36,424 nucleotides of DNA from Planctomycetota bacterium (GTDB lineage: Bacteria > Planctomycetota > Planctomycetia > Planctomycetales > Planctomycetaceae): NCBI GenBank assembly GCA_019347905.1, contig JAHWKJ010000004.1:1-36424 (forward strand), in the 5' to 3' direction. Numbering within the stretch: the stretch's first letter is position 1; every line of letters starts with the position of its first letter. Below, in pieces: positions 2,070-26,567 of the stretch. The notes under the pieces are model-generated. The model did not search any database, was not told the DNA's origin, and was given only the letters and a program-made list of their open reading frames with translations. A program made the position numbers and the translations under genes.

Positions 2070-3437
2070 GTGGAGCCAGCTATGTCGACCTCGCCCCTGC
2101 AGCCGACCCAGCCGGGCCGGCCTACTCTCTCCCTCTTCGACCCGCACGCAGAATCACAATCACAGCCCGGTACGGCGGACCGGGGCGGGGAGACTGCGCC
2201 GCTTCCACCGCAGCTCTCCCCGCCCCAGGGCTCGACGCCGTGGCCGGCGGCCCCGCAGGCGGCCTGGAGACCCCCGCCCGATCCGCGGGCCTCGTGGACG
2301 CTCCTGGAAGTCTTCGAGCGGCTCAAGCTGCCGGAGATCAAGGACCGCCGGCAGACGACGATCGCGGAGTACTACTGCCACCTGCGGAGGTGGGCCGACT
2401 TCTGGGCCACCAGGGAAAGGATTACTTATCCTGCCCTTGCCCCGGAGCCGCGGACGGAAGGACCGCCGGGGACGGAAGGACCTGCGGTGTCGGCCATCAC
2501 GCGGGACGACCTGACGACCTTCCGCGGGTGGCTGGCAGAGCAGAAGACCCGCGGCCGGCGGTGGTCGGACCGCACGATCAAGAAGCATCTGGGCACGGTG
2601 CACGCCATTCTGCTGTGTGCCCAGGATCACCAGCTCATAGGCACGCTTCCGAAGCTCCGGGGCGGCGGCGGCTCGAAGCCAGCCCGCAAGCTGTACCTGC
2701 TCCGCGACGAGGTCTCGGCCCTGTACCTCGAGACCCGCACGGCCAGGTGGCCGGCGGACCTGTACCACCCGCCGCGGGTCTACTGGCAGTGCCTCCTGGT
2801 GTTGTGGTGGAACTACGGTCCGCGGACGCAGGAGCTGGTTCAGCTCAAGCCCGATTTCGACGCGCTCCGCATCCGCAACGTGTGGTGGCAGCGGGACAAC
2901 CCGTCGCCGGAGGGCCGCGCTTCCAACGAGTGGGGCTGGCTGTTCTACACGCCGCAGAAGCAGCGCCGCACGAAGCCGGAGCCGCTGTACCTGCCGATGA
3001 ACGAGACCATTCACCGCCACCTTCGTGCGCTCGTCGAGCCGGACGCGTCGGGCGATGCGCCGCTGTTCCCCTTTCCGCACTCACACGACGCCTTCTACGG
3101 CCAGTGGCGGAAGCTCTGCCGTGCTGCGGGTGTGCGGCCGAAGCCGGACCCGTCCACGGGGGACGCGCCGGAGTTTACGCCGAAGCATTTTCGGAAGACC
3201 GCGGCCACCTGGTTGAACCTGCACCGGCCCGGCATTGCGCAGTGGATCACCGGACACGGCGACGATCGCAGCGCCAGCGCACAGGTCGCCGTCCGCGGGA
3301 GCGGCGAATCCGGCGTGCTCGCCCGGCATTACGACAATGCCGAGAACGCGCTCATCGAGGCGCTCACCACGTACGAGCAGCCGGCCGCCTTCGCCGAAGG
3401 CCCGACTCTCGACGTGCGGCAGAAGCGGCTCTTCTGA
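2070..3437 (+). CDS. Tyrosine recombinase / phage integrase family
   Basis: Arg box NYGPRTQELVQL, box II TPKHFRKTAATWL (K at the usual HxxR histidine position), GHGDDRS, and catalytic-Tyr context LARHYDNAENALIEAL. Confidence 0.85.
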   Translation: MEPAMSTSPLQPTQPGRPTLSLFDPHAESQSQPGTADRGGETAPLPPQLSPPQGSTPWPAAPQAAWRPPPDPRASWTLLEVFERLKLPEIKDRRQTTIAEYYCHLRRWADFWATRERITYPALAPEPRTEGPPGTEGPAVSAITRDDLTTFRGWLAEQKTRGRRWSDRTIKKHLGTVHAILLCAQDHQLIGTLPKLRGGGGSKPARKLYLLRDEVSALYLETRTARWPADLYHPPRVYWQCLLVLWWNYGPRTQELVQLKPDFDALRIRNVWWQRDNPSPEGRASNEWGWLFYTPQKQRRTKPEPLYLPMNETIHRHLRALVEPDASGDAPLFPFPHSHDAFYGQWRKLCRAAGVRPKPDPSTGDAPEFTPKHFRKTAATWLNLHRPGIAQWITGHGDDRSASAQVAVRGSGESGVLARHYDNAENALIEALTTYEQPAAFAEGPTLDVRQKRLF

Positions 3438-4851: not shown

Positions 4852-5234
4852 TCGTGCTGGGCGTCACCGCCGCGAGTCGCGCGGCGCGTGGCCCTCGACC
4901 CGCGCCCAGTGTTACGTCGACGCTCGACGTTCCGGAGCCGCCACAAGCCACACCGGCGCACGCAGGCCCTCAACCTCACGTGAAGACACTCGCCGTCGTG
5001 TTGCCGGTGAAGTCGCTGGCGGAGTGTTACGCGTGCTGCGTGCCGACCTGCTTTTGCGATTCGCCGACCGGCTGCCGGGCCTGTCTGATCCATTCCGAGG
5101 GCCTGCCGCCGCGGTACCGCCGGCAGCTCATCGCCGCCCACGCCGAGGCGAAGTCGGCGGCCGAGACGATCACGATCCACCTGGGCGCGCTGGAGCAGAT
5201 CGTACGCATCGCGGCCGCGGCCCGGCTGAATTGA
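4821..5234 (+). CDS. Hypothetical membrane-anchored Cys-rich protein (GTG start)
   Basis: In-frame GTG with N-terminal TM VFGILWFASVIVLGVTAA and CYACCVPTCFCDSPTGCRAC cluster; 3' part of ORF 4503-5234. Confidence 0.6.
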   Translation: MFGILWFASVIVLGVTAASRAARGPRPAPSVTSTLDVPEPPQATPAHAGPQPHVKTLAVVLPVKSLAECYACCVPTCFCDSPTGCRACLIHSEGLPPRYRRQLIAAHAEAKSAAETITIHLGALEQIVRIAAAARLN

Positions 5235-6807: not shown

Positions 6808-7011
6808 ATGCTCGTGCTCTCGCGCAAGCGCGACGAATCGATTTGTATCGGAGACCAGGTCCTGGTGACCGTCGTCGACGTCGGCGGCGACAAGGTCCGC
6901 TTGGGAGTCACGGCGCCCCTCACGATCAGCGTCGACCGCCAGGAAGTGCGGGACGCGAAGCATGCGCGCGCAGCGGCGGAAGGGGGGCTGGAGGAAGGGG
7001 AGCGCGCATGA
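6808..7011 (+). CDS. csrA: CsrA/RsmA-family carbon storage regulator
   Basis: MLVLSRKRDESICIGDQVLVTVVDVGGDKVRLGVTAPLTISVDRQEV, unmistakable CsrA fold sequence. Confidence 0.95.
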   Translation: MLVLSRKRDESICIGDQVLVTVVDVGGDKVRLGVTAPLTISVDRQEVRDAKHARAAAEGGLEEGERA

Positions 7012-7301
7012 GGTCAGAGGTCAGAGGTCAGAGGTCAGAGGTCAGAGCGAAGGGCGAACTCTCGCCGGCGATCGAGGACCTCGCGCTCGAGCTGGAGGGG
7101 ATGGAATGCGTCAGGTGCAACGGGGGCGGCTGTTCTGCCTGCAACGGCATCGGCTATTTCGGCTGGAGTCCGGATGCGCCGCTCGACGTGCCGCCCGGCC
7201 CCGAACGCGTGCCCTTCCTGGCGGCCCGCTACCAGGCGGGTCGGCCGTTGTTTCACGAGGACGATCCGACCTTCGAGGATTTGCGCCGCAAGCCTCGCTG
7301 A
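7008..7301 (+). CDS. Hypothetical Zn-binding (CxxC repeat) protein with repeat-derived N-terminus
   Basis: CVRCNGGGCSACNGIGYFGW resembles DnaJ-type Zn-binding motifs; ATGA overlap with csrA; N-terminus RSEVRGQRSEVR encoded by AGGTCAG heptamers. Confidence 0.6.
   Translation: MRSEVRGQRSEVRAKGELSPAIEDLALELEGMECVRCNGGGCSACNGIGYFGWSPDAPLDVPPGPERVPFLAARYQAGRPLFHEDDPTFEDLRRKPR
7011..7045 (+). repeat. Tandem heptamer AGGTCAG x5
   Basis: Five perfect consecutive copies. Confidence 0.95.
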
Positions 7302-7318: not shown

Positions 7319-8443
7319 ATGGCCAAACAACGTCCCAGCTCCACGCCGGAAATCAACTGGAACGTGGCGTCCTTTCGCGCGGCCTGCGCGGAATGGAAGG
7401 TCAAGGGGGTGGCGGAGAGGGTGCTGCTGTTGTCGACTCTCGACGCGGCCGCGGTCGAGGAGCTCCAGCGACGTCGCGTCGTGGAGCGAGTCGAACGTGT
7501 CCGCAAGGACGCAGACGGCCGCCGCGACGCGCGGGGCCTGGTGCGCGTCGAGATCGACACGACCCAGCGTCGCCTGGCCGGCTGGCTCGATTGTGCGCCG
7601 TCGGCCCTCGATCGTGCTCTGGCACGGCTGGAGGCACTGGGACTGGCCGCACGAGGCCGCTCGTCGACTGGCACGCGAATTGAACTCCGGGTCTCGGAGC
7701 TGTTCGAACCTCCGCCGCCCCCGCGCCCCACTGGGGCATCGCTCCCGAAAGAGGCTCCGGAAGACGGTGCGGACGCCGCGCGTCTTCCGGCCAGCCAGCA
7801 GGTGGGCGCCCACTCCGAAAAGGTGGGCGCCCACTCCGAAAAGGTGGGCGCCCACTCCGAAAAAGTGGGCGCCCACCTCGAAAACACCGAGGATTTTGAT
7901 GGTGGGCGCCCACCAAGGGCGCCCACCCACGTACGTACGTGTTTTAAAGAGAAGTCTTTAAGACACGTACACGTACGTGGGGAGGGGCGCCCACCAGACG
8001 CAGGTGGGCGCGAGCGACAGCCATCCGGGTGGCGAGAAGCCTCCGACGCCGCGAGTCTTTCGAATCCTCGCGACTGTCAGCGGCTGTGGCGGATTGTGGT
8101 GGCCGCGGGCTGGCTGGCGGAGAGCGAGCAGGGCCGGCTGCGGTTCTTCGCCGCGTGCGCGTGCTGCCGTCGGGCAGAGCGGCCTAAAGCAGCACTGACG
8201 AGCCTCGTGAAGCGCCGCCGCTGGGAATTGCTCACGAACGAGGATGACGACTGGGCGCGCGAGGCGATCCGGTCGATCGACTTCCCGGCGCGACCGTCCG
8301 ACGTCGAGGACAATGTCCGGCGGATGGGCGAATCCCTGCGGCTCCCCGAGGTCGAAGACGACACCGCGCGCCTGAAGGCCGCGGCTCTGCGCCGGATGGC
8401 CGAGTCTCCGATGTTCCGCGAGTACCTGGAGGGCGGACAGTGA
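7319..8443 (+). CDS. Putative replication initiator, lambda-O-like organisation (N-terminal winged HTH, iteron-encoded linker, C-terminal domain)
   Basis: wHTH-like RRLAGWLDCAPSALDRALARLEALGLAARG; linker VGAHSEKVGAHSEKVGAHSEKVGAH from the iteron DNA; distinct C-terminal domain. Confidence 0.65.
   Translation: MAKQRPSSTPEINWNVASFRAACAEWKVKGVAERVLLLSTLDAAAVEELQRRRVVERVERVRKDADGRRDARGLVRVEIDTTQRRLAGWLDCAPSALDRALARLEALGLAARGRSSTGTRIELRVSELFEPPPPPRPTGASLPKEAPEDGADAARLPASQQVGAHSEKVGAHSEKVGAHSEKVGAHLENTEDFDGGRPPRAPTHVRTCFKEKSLRHVHVRGEGRPPDAGGRERQPSGWREASDAASLSNPRDCQRLWRIVVAAGWLAESEQGRLRFFAACACCRRAERPKAALTSLVKRRRWELLTNEDDDWAREAIRSIDFPARPSDVEDNVRRMGESLRLPEVEDDTARLKAAALRRMAESPMFREYLEGGQ
7801..7884 (+). 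repeat. Four 21-bp iterons, candidate replication origin
   Basis: GGTGGGCGCCCACTCCGAAAA at 7801-7821, 7822-7842, 7843-7863; variant AGTGGGCGCCCACCTCGAAAA at 7864-7884; each has a GTGGGCGCCCAC palindrome. Confidence 0.9.
7901..8011 (+). repeat. Degenerate iteron cores flanking an AT-rich hyphenated dyad
   Basis: GGTGGGCGCCCACC 7901-7914; GGGCGCCCACCC 7917-7928; dyad CACGTACGTACGTGTTTTAAAGA-gaag-TCTTTAAGACACGTACACGTACGTG 7928-7979; GGGCGCCCACC about 7985-7995; GGTGGGCGC about 8003-8011. Confidence 0.85.
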
Positions 8444-8724
8444 GCGTGGTGCAGCGGACACTGGCGGGCGACCGCTGGCGGCGAGCGGTCGACGAGATCT
8501 GCAGCGGCAGCGATGCCCGGGCCCAAGTACTCAAGCTCCTCCGCCGTCGGCTGGGCGACGCGCTCATGTGGTGGTACTTCGGCGGCTCGTACACCCGCGT
8601 CGTCGTCGAGGATGTGCAGGTGAGGATCGCCACGCCCGGCGTGCTTGTGCCTTTGATCCGCCGGCATTGCGTGGCGGCCCTGGCTGAGGCCGGCTGGAAC
8701 GTCAGCGTGGAGGGCGCATGGTGA
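8440..8724 (+). CDS. Hypothetical protein
   Basis: 94 aa, 4-nt overlap with 7319-8443. Confidence 0.65.
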   Translation: MSVVQRTLAGDRWRRAVDEICSGSDARAQVLKLLRRRLGDALMWWYFGGSYTRVVVEDVQVRIATPGVLVPLIRRHCVAALAEAGWNVSVEGAW

Positions 8725-9035
8725 GTGACAGGTTCAACGACTCGCGGGAGCGGGAGGAGTTCATCCGCGAGCTGAAGAGTTCATTGCCGCCGGCCGCGCG
8801 GCAGGAATTCGGCGAGATCGAGCAGTATATCCTGCTCGCGTCGCTCGTCGTGTGTGGCCTGACCCGGTACCCGCCGGTCAGTGGCGATCCGCACGGCGAG
8901 CGCTGCAGCGGCGACATGGTCTGCGACGCCTGCGGCCAAACGTACTTCAAGCACCCGATGGACTGGCGGGTGATCGGCTACGGCGACGTGCCCTTCCTCA
9001 ATGTGCTGTGCGATGGCCGGCGGGTGAAGCTATGA
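8718..9035 (+). CDS. Hypothetical protein with Cys pair
   Basis: CSGDMVCDACGQTYFKHP; overlaps its neighbours as in an operon. Confidence 0.65.
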   Translation: MVSDRFNDSREREEFIRELKSSLPPAARQEFGEIEQYILLASLVVCGLTRYPPVSGDPHGERCSGDMVCDACGQTYFKHPMDWRVIGYGDVPFLNVLCDGRRVKL

Positions 9036-9199
9036 CGCCCGAACTGATGGAACTGCTCGACCAGCTCGCGAGGCTCTCGCGGGACCAATGCGTGGATCAA
9101 CGCCTGTACGGCGTCGATCGACGCGCCGAGATCGCACTGGCGCAGGCACTCGACACTCTCAAGGAGACTGGTGATGGCGACGACAACACGGAAGCGTAA
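9032..9199 (+). CDS. Small hypothetical protein (55 aa)
   Basis: MTPELMELLDQLARLSRDQCVDQRLYGVDRRAEIALAQALDTLKE; ATGA overlap. Confidence 0.5.
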   Translation: MTPELMELLDQLARLSRDQCVDQRLYGVDRRAEIALAQALDTLKETGDGDDNTEA

Positions 9200-11321
9200 A
9201 CGCAAAGGCACGGAGAGCACGGAGACTAAGCCGGCGGCTGCCGGGCCGGCGGTCGTCGGACTCGTCAATGGCCGCAAGGCCTGGCGGTGCGACGTGTGCG
9301 GGGCCGCCTGGCCGGAAGATCGGCCGAGCTGCCTCACGGACGGCGGGAAGTGCCCGGGGATGCGGCCCGGACTGTTGCCGTTGGAACTGGCGATGCTCGC
9401 CGCGCTGGAGCCGGCGCCCGGCGAGACGCTCAAGTGGGCCGAGTTGGCGGAGCGCGGTGCGTCAGACGAAGAAATCGGCGAGTTCGTGCGGATCGTGCTG
9501 AACGCCCAGGGAGTCGGCGTTGCGTATTCCGGAGAAGGCGCGCTGTGGTGGAACGGCACGTGCATCAGCGGCGGCCGGTGGCTGAGCCTCTGGTTCGAGC
9601 CCGAGATTGGCGATCGACGCGGTGTGCACCCCGACGAACGCGATCCGGAGCCGCCGGCGGACCTCGAAGGCGACGCCGTGATCGCCGCTGTCCGCGGGCT
9701 GTTCGCAATTCCGCCGGCGGCGGCTGGCTCTCAACCCTCCAACGGACAAGCTGCAAAATCGGGGGCGAAAACATCCCGCAAAACATCCCGCGGGAAGGTG
9801 ATGGGGGCGGCGACGGTCGCGGCCGGCGCCGTGTGGCTGCCGGTCGAGCTGATCGATCCTTCGCCGTACCAGCCGCGGCGGCACTTCGACGAGGCGAAGC
9901 TCAAGAGTCTGGGCAAATCGCTTCGCGACGACGGGCAGGCCCAGGCCTGCCAGGTACGCCCGAAGCCGGACGGGCGGTACGAGCTGATCGAAGGTGAGCG
10001 CCGGCTCCGCGCGGTCAAGCTGGAGGGCCTGCCGACGCTGAAGTGCGACATCGAGGAGATCGACGACGCCACGGCCATCCGCCGCTGCGGCGCCGCGAAC
10101 CTCGAACGCGAGCAGCTCAACAAGATCGAGGAAATCCGCTGGTACCGCACGCTCCTCGATCACGGTGTCTTCCCGAAGCAGAAGGACCTGGCGAAGAAGC
10201 TCGGCATCAAGGAAGCGAGCCTGTCCAATCTGCTGCGGCTGCTCGACCTGCCGCAGGCCACGCAGGACCTCATTTCTCAAGAAAAGTTGACGGCCACGGC
10301 CGCTCGGTATCTCGTCCCATTCAAGGACCGGCCGGCCGTGCTCGATCGCGTGGCCAAGTCACTGGCCTCCTATCGGAGGCCGGCCGGCGTCGAAGACGCG
10401 AAGCACGAGATCGGCCAGGCCCTCCGCAGCGTTGCCCGTCCACTGGAGGGCTGGGGATACGCCGAACGCAAAGGCCGCCGAGACTGGATTGAGGTTGCGC
10501 TCTCGAAGACGGACCGCGACCGCGCCGATCTCGACGTCGTTGAGTTCGATCGCGAGAAGTTCGCGATGAACGTCAAGCTGTGGGAGGAACTGCAGGCCAA
10601 GGGCGAAGCCCGGCGGAAGAAGGCGCAGTCCAGCCGCGGCTCGAAGGCCGGCGGCGGCCGCGTGGTCAATGTCGACTCGGCGGCGGACGACGCGGCCGCA
10701 CGGCGCGAGAAGGTGAAGCAGAAGCGGGAGCAGTGGCAGAAGAAGCTCTACCGCTGGAAACTCCGCTGGCTCCAGGAGCGGAGCGTGGAGCGTCTCGCGC
10801 AGGCGGGCCCGGAAATCGTGCTGAAGCTGGTCGCGTTCTTCGCCCTGAGGCCTGGTCACACGGAGCGCGCCATCAGCCTGCGGTCGATCGTGACTGCTGC
10901 CGGCGGCAAGACGCCGTCGCGAAAGGCGGGCACTTGGCTCAATGAGCTCGACTCGTGGGCGGCGCTGTCGTCGATCGAGCCGAAGCAACTGCCGTCGTTG
11001 GCGGTCGAGGCGCTGAGCGTGTGGCTGCGGCATGACTTCGAGCGATCGAGTGCCGACGTGCGGCCGGCCGACATCGAGCGGATCAGCGGCGAGCTGGGGG
11101 TTGACCTCCAACGGGACTGGAAGCTCAGCCGCGACTACCTCGAACTCTACACGACCGAAAGCCTGCATGGCCTCGCGAAGGAGTGGAGCCTCGAGGGCTG
11201 GCTATTGGGCCGCCCGAAGCGTGCCGACGTGATCGACGGCATCCTCAGCGCGAACGGTCAAATCGAGAAGAAGGTGCGCTGCCCCAGGGAATTGCTGCAG
11301 CTCAAGGCGGTGCGGCTGTGA
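9171..11321 (+). CDS. ParB/Spo0J-family protein with N-terminal Zn-ribbon and long C-terminal extension
   Basis: LIDPSPYQPRRHFDEAKLKSLGKSLRDDGQAQACQVRPKPDGRYELIEGERRLRAVKLEGLPTLKC...AANLEREQLNKIEEIRWYRTLLD...QKDLAKKLGIKEASLSNLLRLLDLP is a clear ParB N-terminal domain plus HTH. Confidence 0.9.
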   Translation: MMATTTRKRKRKGTESTETKPAAAGPAVVGLVNGRKAWRCDVCGAAWPEDRPSCLTDGGKCPGMRPGLLPLELAMLAALEPAPGETLKWAELAERGASDEEIGEFVRIVLNAQGVGVAYSGEGALWWNGTCISGGRWLSLWFEPEIGDRRGVHPDERDPEPPADLEGDAVIAAVRGLFAIPPAAAGSQPSNGQAAKSGAKTSRKTSRGKVMGAATVAAGAVWLPVELIDPSPYQPRRHFDEAKLKSLGKSLRDDGQAQACQVRPKPDGRYELIEGERRLRAVKLEGLPTLKCDIEEIDDATAIRRCGAANLEREQLNKIEEIRWYRTLLDHGVFPKQKDLAKKLGIKEASLSNLLRLLDLPQATQDLISQEKLTATAARYLVPFKDRPAVLDRVAKSLASYRRPAGVEDAKHEIGQALRSVARPLEGWGYAERKGRRDWIEVALSKTDRDRADLDVVEFDREKFAMNVKLWEELQAKGEARRKKAQSSRGSKAGGGRVVNVDSAADDAAARREKVKQKREQWQKKLYRWKLRWLQERSVERLAQAGPEIVLKLVAFFALRPGHTERAISLRSIVTAAGGKTPSRKAGTWLNELDSWAALSSIEPKQLPSLAVEALSVWLRHDFERSSADVRPADIERISGELGVDLQRDWKLSRDYLELYTTESLHGLAKEWSLEGWLLGRPKRADVIDGILSANGQIEKKVRCPRELLQLKAVRL

Positions 11322-13362: not shown

Positions 13363-13413
13363 GAAAAACATCTATAGATTTTCGTTGACGCCGACGAAAA
13401 ACATCTATAGATT
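13363..13413 (+). promoter_or_regulatory. Paired operator-like direct repeats overlapping a possible promoter
   Basis: GAAAAACATCTATAGATT at 13363-13380 and 13396-13413 (33 bp apart), each with palindrome ATCTATAGAT; TTGACG at 13385 as possible -35. Confidence 0.7.
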
Positions 13414-14297: not shown

Positions 14298-15221
14298 ATG
14301 CCGCGCTGGTGGCCCTTCGGCAAGGAGGCCACCGGACTGACGCTGAAGGAGGCACTCGACTTGTACTTTGAATATGCGGTCGGCCTCGCGCCGCGCACGC
14401 AGCGCAACATGCGCAGCCGCATCAGCCAGTGGGAGAAGCGCGGCGGCGAAATGCGCGTCGCGCGGATCACCGAGCGGGACTTCCGCCGCTTCCGCGAGCG
14501 GTGCCTGGCCGAAGGCTTGCGAGCCTACACCATCGAGGTGACGCTCAACGCGGTCTACACCGTGCTTCGGCACTGCGGGCCGGCGTCGATTGCGCCACAC
14601 GGTCGCGGGATCCTGAAGACGATTCCCGCCAAGGGCCGGCGGCTCAAGATCGCATTCGCGCAGAAGCCGACGCCTTCGCTCGCCGATCTGTCCCGTGTCT
14701 ACGAGTTGGCGGACATGGCGTGGTATCCGCAGACGCACCTTGCGCCGGAGGTGTGGGTCCGGGGCCTGCTCGTGATCGCGTACAACACGGCACTGCGGCT
14801 GTCCGACCTCTTGCGGCTGCGCTGGGAGCATGTGCGGCTGAGCGATCAGGCGATCAAGCTCGCGGCGAAGAAGACCGGGAAGGAACAGTGGCTGCCGATC
14901 AACGCGACGCTCGCGCGGCACCTCGAAGCGCTGCGCGGAGGCGACGAGCGAGTGCTCCCGCTCGACTGCCAGCAGTTCGACCACCTCCGCCGGCAGCTCT
15001 ACACGATCTGCGATGCCGCCGGCGTGGAGCGGTTCGCACCGCAGGGGATTCGCCGGAGGTCGGCGACTGAGTACGAGCGCGTTAGCCCCGGCGCTGGTGG
15101 TCTGATTTTGGGCCACACTTTGCGCTCCATGACCTTTGCGCACTACGTCCAATCGCTCGACGTGCTGCAGCCTGCCGCCGACAAGCTGCCACAACCGGAG
15201 GCGTTCCTGAAGAAACCGTAA
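14298..15221 (+). CDS. Second tyrosine recombinase
   Basis: SAM-like N-terminus, TALRLSDLLRLRWEHV, AAKKTGKEQWLPI, box II FAPQGIRRRSATEY (Q at His position), LGHTLRSMTFAHYVQSLDVL. Confidence 0.85.
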   Translation: MPRWWPFGKEATGLTLKEALDLYFEYAVGLAPRTQRNMRSRISQWEKRGGEMRVARITERDFRRFRERCLAEGLRAYTIEVTLNAVYTVLRHCGPASIAPHGRGILKTIPAKGRRLKIAFAQKPTPSLADLSRVYELADMAWYPQTHLAPEVWVRGLLVIAYNTALRLSDLLRLRWEHVRLSDQAIKLAAKKTGKEQWLPINATLARHLEALRGGDERVLPLDCQQFDHLRRQLYTICDAAGVERFAPQGIRRRSATEYERVSPGAGGLILGHTLRSMTFAHYVQSLDVLQPAADKLPQPEAFLKKP

Positions 15222-18485: not shown

Positions 18486-18512
18486 TGACCCTCAACCCTC
18501 AACCCTCAACCC
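18486..18512 (-). repeat. GAGGGTT heptamer array (minus-strand sense)
   Basis: ctgaCCCTCAACCCTCAACCCTCAACCC. Confidence 0.9.
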
Positions 18513-24069: not shown

Positions 24070-24639
24070 TTAAGCGGAGTCAGGCAGCGGCGGGATGCGC
24101 GTGGAAGCGAAGGGCGCGGCCGAGTCCGGCAGGAGCCGGCCGATCCTCGGGACGGGCGGCGGAACGGAGAAGGGCGCGACGTGTGCCGTCCGTGAGCGGT
24201 GCGGCCGGCGATCGCGATAGACGGGGCGGCCTTCGGTTGGATCGGCTGCCGGCGTTTCCAGCGGGACTGAGAACGGGGCGACGTGCGCGGTGCGTGACCG
24301 GTGCGGCCGGCGGGACGGATAAACCTGCAGGCCTTCGGGCGGCGGCGGCTCGGGCGTCTCGATCGGCGTCGCGAACGGCGCGACGTGAGCGGTCCGCGAG
24401 CGGAACGGCCGCCGCGACGGGAAGAGCTGCACGCTCTCCTCGGCGACCACCGGCGGCTCGGGCGTTTCGATCGGCGTCGCGAACGGCGCGACGTGCACCG
24501 TCCGCGAGCGGTACGGCCGCCGCTCCGGCAGGACCTGCGCGCCGGCCGGCAGCGGTTCCGCCTCGGGCGTGGCCAGTCCACCGACCGGCCACCGCCAGGG
24601 CGCCCGCTGCCGACTGCGATCGCGTTTGCGGTACTGCAC
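24070..24639 (-). CDS. Low-complexity tandem-repeat protein (RRPxRSRTAHVAPF)
   Basis: Four repeats of about 34-37 aa: RRPYRSRTVHVAPFATPIETPEPP / RRPFRSRTAHVAPFATPIETPEPP / RRPHRSRTAHVAPFSVPLETP / RRPHRSRTAHVAPFSVPPPVP. Confidence 0.6.
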   Translation of the reverse strand: MQYRKRDRSRQRAPWRWPVGGLATPEAEPLPAGAQVLPERRPYRSRTVHVAPFATPIETPEPPVVAEESVQLFPSRRPFRSRTAHVAPFATPIETPEPPPPEGLQVYPSRRPHRSRTAHVAPFSVPLETPAADPTEGRPVYRDRRPHRSRTAHVAPFSVPPPVPRIGRLLPDSAAPFASTRIPPLPDSA

Positions 24640-24644
24640 AGGAC

Positions 24645-25895
24645 CTACTCATTGAATGCGTACCACAGCGACTGGCCGGCCCGCTGGACCTCGACGCCGA
24701 AGGCTTCATCGACCGCCGCGGTGACGCCGGGAAACGTCCCGTAGTCGTGCCCGCAGATCAGGCCGCCCTTTCGAACGTGCGGCCGCCACGCGCGGATATC
24801 GGCCGAGCAGCCCACGTACGAGTGATCGGCATCGATGAACAGCACGTCGAGTGTCTCGCGAAACTCCAAAGCCGCGGCCAGCGAGCTCGTGCGGTGGACG
24901 ACCGGCGGCGGCTCGATGTGACGCGTGTTCTGAGCGAACAGCTTTTCAAGCCGGTCGGAGCCGTACTTCGCCACCATCTTCCCGGTGCGGTCGTGGGGCG
25001 TCCCAAACCAGTGATCGACGCAGTGGAGCCTGCCGCGGTGACGCATGCCCTGCCAAAGAGCGACGGCCGAATGGCCGACCCACGAGCCGATCTCGCACGC
25101 CACGAGCGGCCTGGAAAGCACGTCGCCCCACTGCGACACGAGTTTGGACAGCGCCGCCAGGTCCTCGGGGCTGGTGACCTGGTGGACGGTCTCCGGCTCC
25201 CGCGGGCTGCCGATCGTGACGGGCTTGATGTGCCCGGCCCAGCAGTCCCAGGCGGAATGCACCGGGTTGTAGCCGAGCTTCCGCTCGCAGGCCAGACGGA
25301 CGTTGCGCGTGAAGACCACGTCCTCGGTCGAGAGCTTCTCCGTGTGGGCGGCGTCCACCCACTCATAGCTGTAATAGGGCGGCTCGATCAGGCCGAAGGC
25401 GCGCGTGTCGATCATCATCAGGCCCGTGCCGATCGCACCCACCGGCCGAATGCCGCGCAGCTCGGCAGCGTCTTCGCTGGTGTACGGTCGCAGGAGCGGA
25501 CCGTCGCTCTCGTAGACCAGCGGCTGGCAGTCAGGAGGCGGCGACGAGTAGGGAGCGCCCACGATGTGGGGTCCACGATCCCAGTTGTCGACGCAGAAGC
25601 TGAGCGCCGTCGGAAACCAGCGCGGCATCGCCGCGTCGGTGTCCGGCTCCATGTCGGCGTCGATCATCACCAGGATGTCGATCTCCCGCTCCAGCGCGTA
25701 GCGGGCGGCGACGTTTCTGGCGTAATCGGTTGGGCAGCGGGCAAAGTCCTCGGTGTGGATCTTCTCCAGCCGCGCGTCGTGATAGGCTTCCAGGAACGTG
25801 CGCAGCGCCCAGCGGCGGACGCTCGAGTACTCGACGCGGCCCAGGTGCCCCGCGTAGGGGAAAAAGGCGAAGCCAATGTTGAGCTTCCGCGGCAT
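24645..25895 (-). CDS. Glycosyltransferase-like plus SAM-dependent methyltransferase fusion
   Basis: N-term ...YALEREIDILVMIDADMEPDTD (GT-A DxD-like); C-term VACEIGSWVGHSAVALWQGM...LDVLFIDADHSYVGCSADIRAWRPHVRKGGLICGHDYGTFPGV (class I MTase, Methyltransf_24-like). Confidence 0.75.
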   Translation of the reverse strand: MPRKLNIGFAFFPYAGHLGRVEYSSVRRWALRTFLEAYHDARLEKIHTEDFARCPTDYARNVAARYALEREIDILVMIDADMEPDTDAAMPRWFPTALSFCVDNWDRGPHIVGAPYSSPPPDCQPLVYESDGPLLRPYTSEDAAELRGIRPVGAIGTGLMMIDTRAFGLIEPPYYSYEWVDAAHTEKLSTEDVVFTRNVRLACERKLGYNPVHSAWDCWAGHIKPVTIGSPREPETVHQVTSPEDLAALSKLVSQWGDVLSRPLVACEIGSWVGHSAVALWQGMRHRGRLHCVDHWFGTPHDRTGKMVAKYGSDRLEKLFAQNTRHIEPPPVVHRTSSLAAALEFRETLDVLFIDADHSYVGCSADIRAWRPHVRKGGLICGHDYGTFPGVTAAVDEAFGVEVQRAGQSLWYAFNE

Positions 25896-26516: not shown

Positions 26517-26567
26517 CCGGGTTGAGGGTTGAGGGTTGAGGGTCAGAACCAAACCGGCGGACGCCGG
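26517..26567. repeat. Composite repeat: GAGGGTT array plus CCGGCGGACGCCGG hairpin
   Basis: GGGTTGAGGGTTGAGGGTTGAGGGTCAGAACCAAACCGGCGGACGCCGG; similar composite at 34030-34088. Confidence 0.75.

Follow-up and report, generated by a model that had tools for sequence, protein, structure and literature searches.

A candidate in-gene replication origin within a putative initiator gene of a planctomycete prophage-like element

The window analysed here, a 36,424-nucleotide stretch of a planctomycete contig, contains an open reading frame (ORF) of 374 aa (7319-8443, plus strand) in which a cluster of palindromic repeats and an AT-rich dyad are embedded in the coding sequence. Why should such an array lie inside a gene? 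The repeats could be bound by the encoded protein, bound by a different protein, regulate the gene that contains them, or simply reflect a repetitive peptide. A preliminary description of this DNA favored the first of these, proposing that the ORF is a replication initiator gene with its origin built in, as in phage lambda.

Repeats and an AT-rich dyad inside ORF 7319-8443

The palindrome GTGGGCGCCCAC occurs in five full copies at 7802-7913 within the ORF, four of them spaced exactly 21 bp. These four define an iteron array on the plus strand (7800-7884) of 21-bp units with one palindrome apiece, unique within the 6.18-Mb assembly and comprising three perfect copies of AGGTGGGCGCCCACTCCGAAA (7800-7862) and a variant fourth (7863-7884), just as first described. 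To these we add the fifth full palindrome (7902-7913, within 7901-7914, plus strand), at which the reading frame of the repeat changes. The partial cores reported around the dyad were also recovered on the plus strand, with GGGCGCCCACC at its left edge (7917-7928) and two cores on its right side (7985-7996 and 8000-8011, together 7985-8011). The dyad itself, CACGTACGTACGTGTTTTAAAGA-GAAG-TCTTTAAGACACGTACACGTACGTG, spans 52 nt (7928-7979, not assigned to a strand), is capable of forming a hairpin or cruciform, and is the proposed unwinding element.

An 11-mer of the iteron is present in eight copies inside 250 bp, the top cluster of the 36 kb, with a runner-up of four; dinucleotide-shuffled versions of the ORF likewise contained at most four copies, versus the eight observed. 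Across the 6.18-Mb assembly, GGTGGGCGCCCAC is confined to the array in ORF 7319-8443, with no copies of the 13-mer elsewhere, and a search with GGTGGGCGCCCAC revealed no second iteron array. The dyad region, earlier called the most AT-rich patch nearby, contains the 40-mer with the highest AT content in the ORF, and a 50-mer over the dyad is 60% AT, ranking third for AT in a contig that is roughly one third AT. As single-stranded DNA, 7915-7990 folds at -30.6 kcal/mol (z = -8.9), a value matched by none of 200 shuffles. The cumulative GC-skew minimum, at 5144 and about 2.7 kb upstream of the iterons, is confounded by gene direction and uninformative. We conclude that both the iterons and the dyad are genuine features with strong statistical support, and that they are restricted to this gene.

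Initiators often autoregulate, and the strong hairpin, judging from the DNA fold, would form in mRNA too. The gene might thus use the repeats as an operator for autoregulation and the dyad to attenuate or terminate transcription, with the true origin elsewhere. However, an operator deep within its own coding sequence would be unusual, no U-tract follows the dyad stem, an Rfam search found no RNA match, and the AT-rich block and its position match the origins of lambda and SPP1 (PMC7466680, PMC6316719). We consider a purely regulatory role improbable, and favor an origin as the function of the array.

The candidate initiator and its homologs

The protein encoded by ORF 7319-8443 is a candidate O-like replication initiator, with a winged helix-turn-helix (wHTH)-like region at approximately aa 70-130, a linker at approximately aa 135-232, and a helical C-terminal domain at approximately aa 235-330. 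Its wHTH-like region gave a weak match to HTH_Crp_2 (E 2.5e-4) that fell short of the cut-off; Pfam yielded no above-cut-off match for the protein and no Rep_3 domain. An AF2 model of the N-terminal domain was too poor for use (pLDDT 51). Among homologs, the N-terminal regions match HTH_36 in 10 of 17 cases by Pfam and RepA_N in one of 17 (E 2.8e-4), and they match PHROG families annotated as 'replication initiation', 'O-like', and 'DnaD-like helicase loader'. The C-terminal domain is modeled by AF2 as eight helices with a core pLDDT of 82; it has no relative in Pfam or PDB sequences, and the model matched no PDB or BFVD fold (best E > 1). No helicase or P-like loader was recognized beside the initiator gene, the genes at 8440-8724 and 8718-9035 matching no loader family; a loader of unrecognized type is possible there.

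A profile search with the C-terminal domain identified 35 places in 28 of the 348 genomes of the class; within the family the domain occurs in 21 of 170 genomes, with a few others elsewhere in the phylum, and two of the loci come from Schlesneria MAGs. Searches with back-translated patterns found no close relative of the window protein in genome or viral contigs and, for three homologs, no relative in viral contigs; 50,697 phage records likewise contained no relative. The homologs fall into two architectures: subtype a, with a single wHTH, a linker, and the C-terminal domain, and subtype b, with a longer N-terminal region. We analyzed 19 subtype-a genes, including that of the window, all of which have the order wHTH, linker, all-helical C-terminal domain.

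Eleven of these 19 genes carry a linker repeat of 4-11 copies, with nine unrelated words among them. The iteron GGTCAAWTTGACC is common to L020, L042, and L037, and the others are GGACCGGTCC in L022, ACCGGGGCCA in L039, GGGGCGACA in L035, GGGGGCGCACC in L043, CGGAAACCCACTTCCG in L076, CACGACAAATTGTCGTG in L078, TGTCAGCCCTGACA in L084, and that of the window. Shuffle controls reached at most three copies (four for the window), with L076, L078, and L084 counted without shuffles. Weaker arrays of two or three copies are present in L034, L041, L017, L077, and L085, and no clear iteron array was seen in the subtype-a genes L032, L040, and L080. Spacings of 20-24 bp recur in many of the arrays. The words are mostly palindromic, and the AT-rich minimum of the gene usually comes after the array. 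Thus, the expectation that iteron position would be kept while iteron sequence changes holds in 11 of the 19 single-wHTH homologs, window included.

In 16 of 19 subtype-a genes, and in 8 of 16 iteron-less subtype-b genes, the lowest-GC 40-mer lies 44-162 nt ahead of the C-terminal domain. At the AT minimum, a significant dyad (z at or below about -2.4) was found in 9 of the 19 subtype-a genes and in none of 12 subtype-b genes, so the cruciform-type dyad noted in the window recurs. In the subtype-b genes tested, repeat counts never exceeded those of their own shuffles and no iterons were detected. Members of subtype b (L018, L019, L023-L031, L036, and L038) often have a linker motif resembling 'NQKPAxxG'.

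These comparisons bear on whether DNA or peptide is repeated. The 21-bp period had been said to coincide with a codon-level repeat of the peptide VGAHSEK, and homolog linkers are of low complexity, as expected if a protein-level repeat in a disordered linker came first and the DNA repeat were incidental or a slippage expansion. The coincidence holds for the first four copies, which are in frame at period 21 and read VGAH, but not for the later ones: the fifth copy and the partial cores use the two remaining frames and read GRPP or RAPT. The repeat word also occupies all three frames in L022, L039, and L084, the last with a period of 20. Since copies of the iteron word fall in each of the three frames, it is the DNA that is repeated and not the peptide, and the repetition in the peptide is a by-product. 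When the linker of the window was randomly recoded with synonymous codons, a mean of 0.57 copies of GGGCGCCC remained, with a maximum of 4, versus 7 observed. Together with the palindromic nature of most words and the AT-rich block that usually follows the arrays, these results make a peptide-level origin of the repeat extremely unlikely, and we favor repetition of the DNA itself.

The element and the protein that reads the iterons

The contig is prophage-like, with a minus-strand tail block that includes a PF10145 tape-measure protein and a plus-strand early block that encodes a tyrosine integrase, CsrA, the initiator candidate, and a ParB-like protein. The sole terminase match in the assembly is on a different, small contig, and the element may be divided among contigs. 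The early block lies between two tyrosine-recombinase-like genes, 2070-3437 (a weak Pfam match) and 14298-15221. Among 50-mers of the contig, AT content is highest at 13364-13413, upstream of the integrase, where direct copies of AAACATCTATAGATT surround a TTTCGTTGACGCCGACGAAA dyad; this is a possible att site or operator. Perfect heptamer tandem repeats, some at gene boundaries of the element, occur at 7010-7047 (GAGGTCA, 5.4 copies), 18488-18512 (ACCCTCA, 3.6 copies), and 26519-26543 (GGGTTGA, 3.6 copies). In the tail region, the minus-strand ORF 24070-24639 contains a degenerate 102-bp tandem repeat (24167-24519) encoding RRPHRSRTAHVAPF peptide repeats, and the tail-block protein of 24645-25895 has a C-terminal Methyltransf_24 domain and an N-terminal part that is possibly glycosyltransferase-like.

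Directly upstream of the initiator gene is a csrA gene (6808-7011, plus strand; PF02599, E 1e-19). Six homologous loci (L049, L050, L053, L055, L059, and L062) likewise have a CsrA gene close to the initiator or upstream of it, which suggests a conserved regulatory link between CsrA and the initiator. The ParB-like gene (9171-11321, plus strand; 716 aa; PF02195 and PF17762) belongs, as its downstream member, to an early module conserved in some elements (L049, L050, L053, L059, and L060).

Since parS sites are palindromic, the repeats might instead be a parS-like centromere for this ParB-like protein, which has ParB_N and HTH domains and is encoded about 1.2 kb downstream of the array; the initiator-ParB gene pair is kept in five further loci. 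The sequence of the site, however, does not track ParB. L020 and L042 share the iteron GGTCAAWTTGACC, yet their ParBs are 24% identical, which is the background level and no closer than other pairs, and iterons are present in L043 (in L055) and L035 (in L054) with no ParB detected within about 9 kb. Moreover, no ParA partner was recognizable among the early genes scanned, and an AT-rich dyad adjoining the array suits an origin better than a centromere. We therefore disfavor a ParB/parS centromere, which we regard as quite unlikely, and return to the initiator as the candidate reader of the iterons.

The initiators of L020 and L042 have a common recognition-helix motif, RSRNTxRxYI, and the half-site GGTCAA recurs in L020, L042, and L037, whose recognition helices are related. 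L075 and L084, which belong to one genome, similarly have the motif CSPRNCxRxIR and the half-site TGTCA in common, and differ in their centers and copy number. The related initiator gene at approximately 975-1870 of L075 has frame breaks in its linker and a shorter TGTCACCGGTGACA array, and is probably decaying. In a permutation test, wHTH similarity correlated with iteron similarity (r = 0.35, 45 of 5000 permutations), a correlation probably driven largely by one close pair. L034 and L035 are a partial exception, both having GGGGCGACA despite low overall wHTH identity. As a comparison of sequences, the tracking of iteron similarity by wHTH similarity is suggestive only.

The origin reading and known replication systems

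Taken together, we think it very likely that ORF 7319-8443 encodes the initiator (replisome organizer) of a temperate planctomycete phage or integrated element and that the DNA encoding its linker is an O-type in-gene origin. From this layout we infer iteron binding, strand opening, helicase recruitment, and origin activity as follows. The N-terminal wHTH would bind, probably as a dimer, the palindromic iterons (7800-7914) and the half-cores flanking the dyad. With sites two helical turns apart in the arrays, the bound protein would assemble along a single face of the DNA into a nucleoprotein complex, which could strain and open the adjoining AT-rich dyad (7928-7979). The role of the C-terminal helical domain would then be to recruit host DnaB as the replicative helicase, directly or by way of a loader. 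A bolder version, which we offer as speculation and judge rather unlikely, is that the helicase or primase enters at the hairpin itself, rather than simply at a melted AT tract, and that the new C-terminal domain recognizes this entry site, which would make this an undescribed initiator family with changeable iterons and an extrudable AT-rich hairpin.

Three features seem not to have been described before: this family of initiators, the domain at their C-terminus, and the strong dyad often present next to the iterons. We found no description of an in-gene origin in planctomycete elements in the literature, a search of open-licence full text that is weak evidence that none exists. If the reading is correct, origins and initiators would be identified for planctomycete mobile elements, and their compact cis-plus-trans replicons of about 1.1 kb would be potential vectors. 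The homologs would also form a natural series of initiators in which layout is fixed and DNA specificity changes. The linker and the binding sites have to be encoded in the same DNA, so joint change of a protein and its own embedded target becomes testable.

In iteron plasmids, the iterons usually lie outside coding sequence. The RepA/Rep_3 systems resemble the window in having initiator-specific, helix-phased iterons beside an AT-rich region, but theirs are mostly direct repeats that bind monomers (PMC5043065), and no Rep_3 domain was found in ORF 7319-8443. The rep-ori regions of phage-inducible chromosomal islands (PICIs) also place iterons and an AT-rich melting region beside the initiator gene; there, however, the origin is 3' of rep and two iteron sets flank the AT region (PMC6092414). 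In the Bacillus phage SPP1, oriL sits inside gene 38, with direct repeats bound by the SPP1 initiator and an AT-rich unwinding element within the initiator gene (PMC6316719). Unlike the planctomycete assembly, in which one array was seen, SPP1 carries an additional origin (oriR) and encodes both a loader and a helicase.

The lambda origin occupies a central part of gene O and consists of iterons with dyad symmetry (18 bp in lambda) and an AT-rich tract, followed by the C-terminal domain (PMC7466680, PMC6022878). We ran lambda gene O (J02459) through the same pipeline as a positive control. Its annotated iterons were mid-gene, with starts 20-24 bp apart and a GC minimum just 3' of iteron 4. Our strict repeat count scored lambda O at three copies, so the four-copy threshold is conservative. 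ORF 7319-8443 shares the design, with dyad-symmetric iterons in mid-gene and an AT-rich block directly 3' of them and before the C-terminal domain, and its order of wHTH-like region, iterons, AT-rich block, and C-terminal domain matches that of the control, in support of the lambda-like origin first proposed. It differs from lambda in its unrelated iteron sequence, in an AT block that is a strong dyad where the lambda tract is not (z -0.1 by the same measure), and in its neighbors, which are ParB and CsrA with no P-like loader recognized adjacent. The proposal that this origin was built independently fared less clearly: hhalign of the N- and C-terminal profiles against lambda O gave probabilities below 1%, with no detectable similarity of either domain, but the N-termini of homologs match O-like PHROGs, so that a distant common ancestor for the N-terminal domain is possible. 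The layout is thus known from lambda and SPP1, and what is new is its planctomycete setting and how widely the iterons have turned over while their position stayed fixed.
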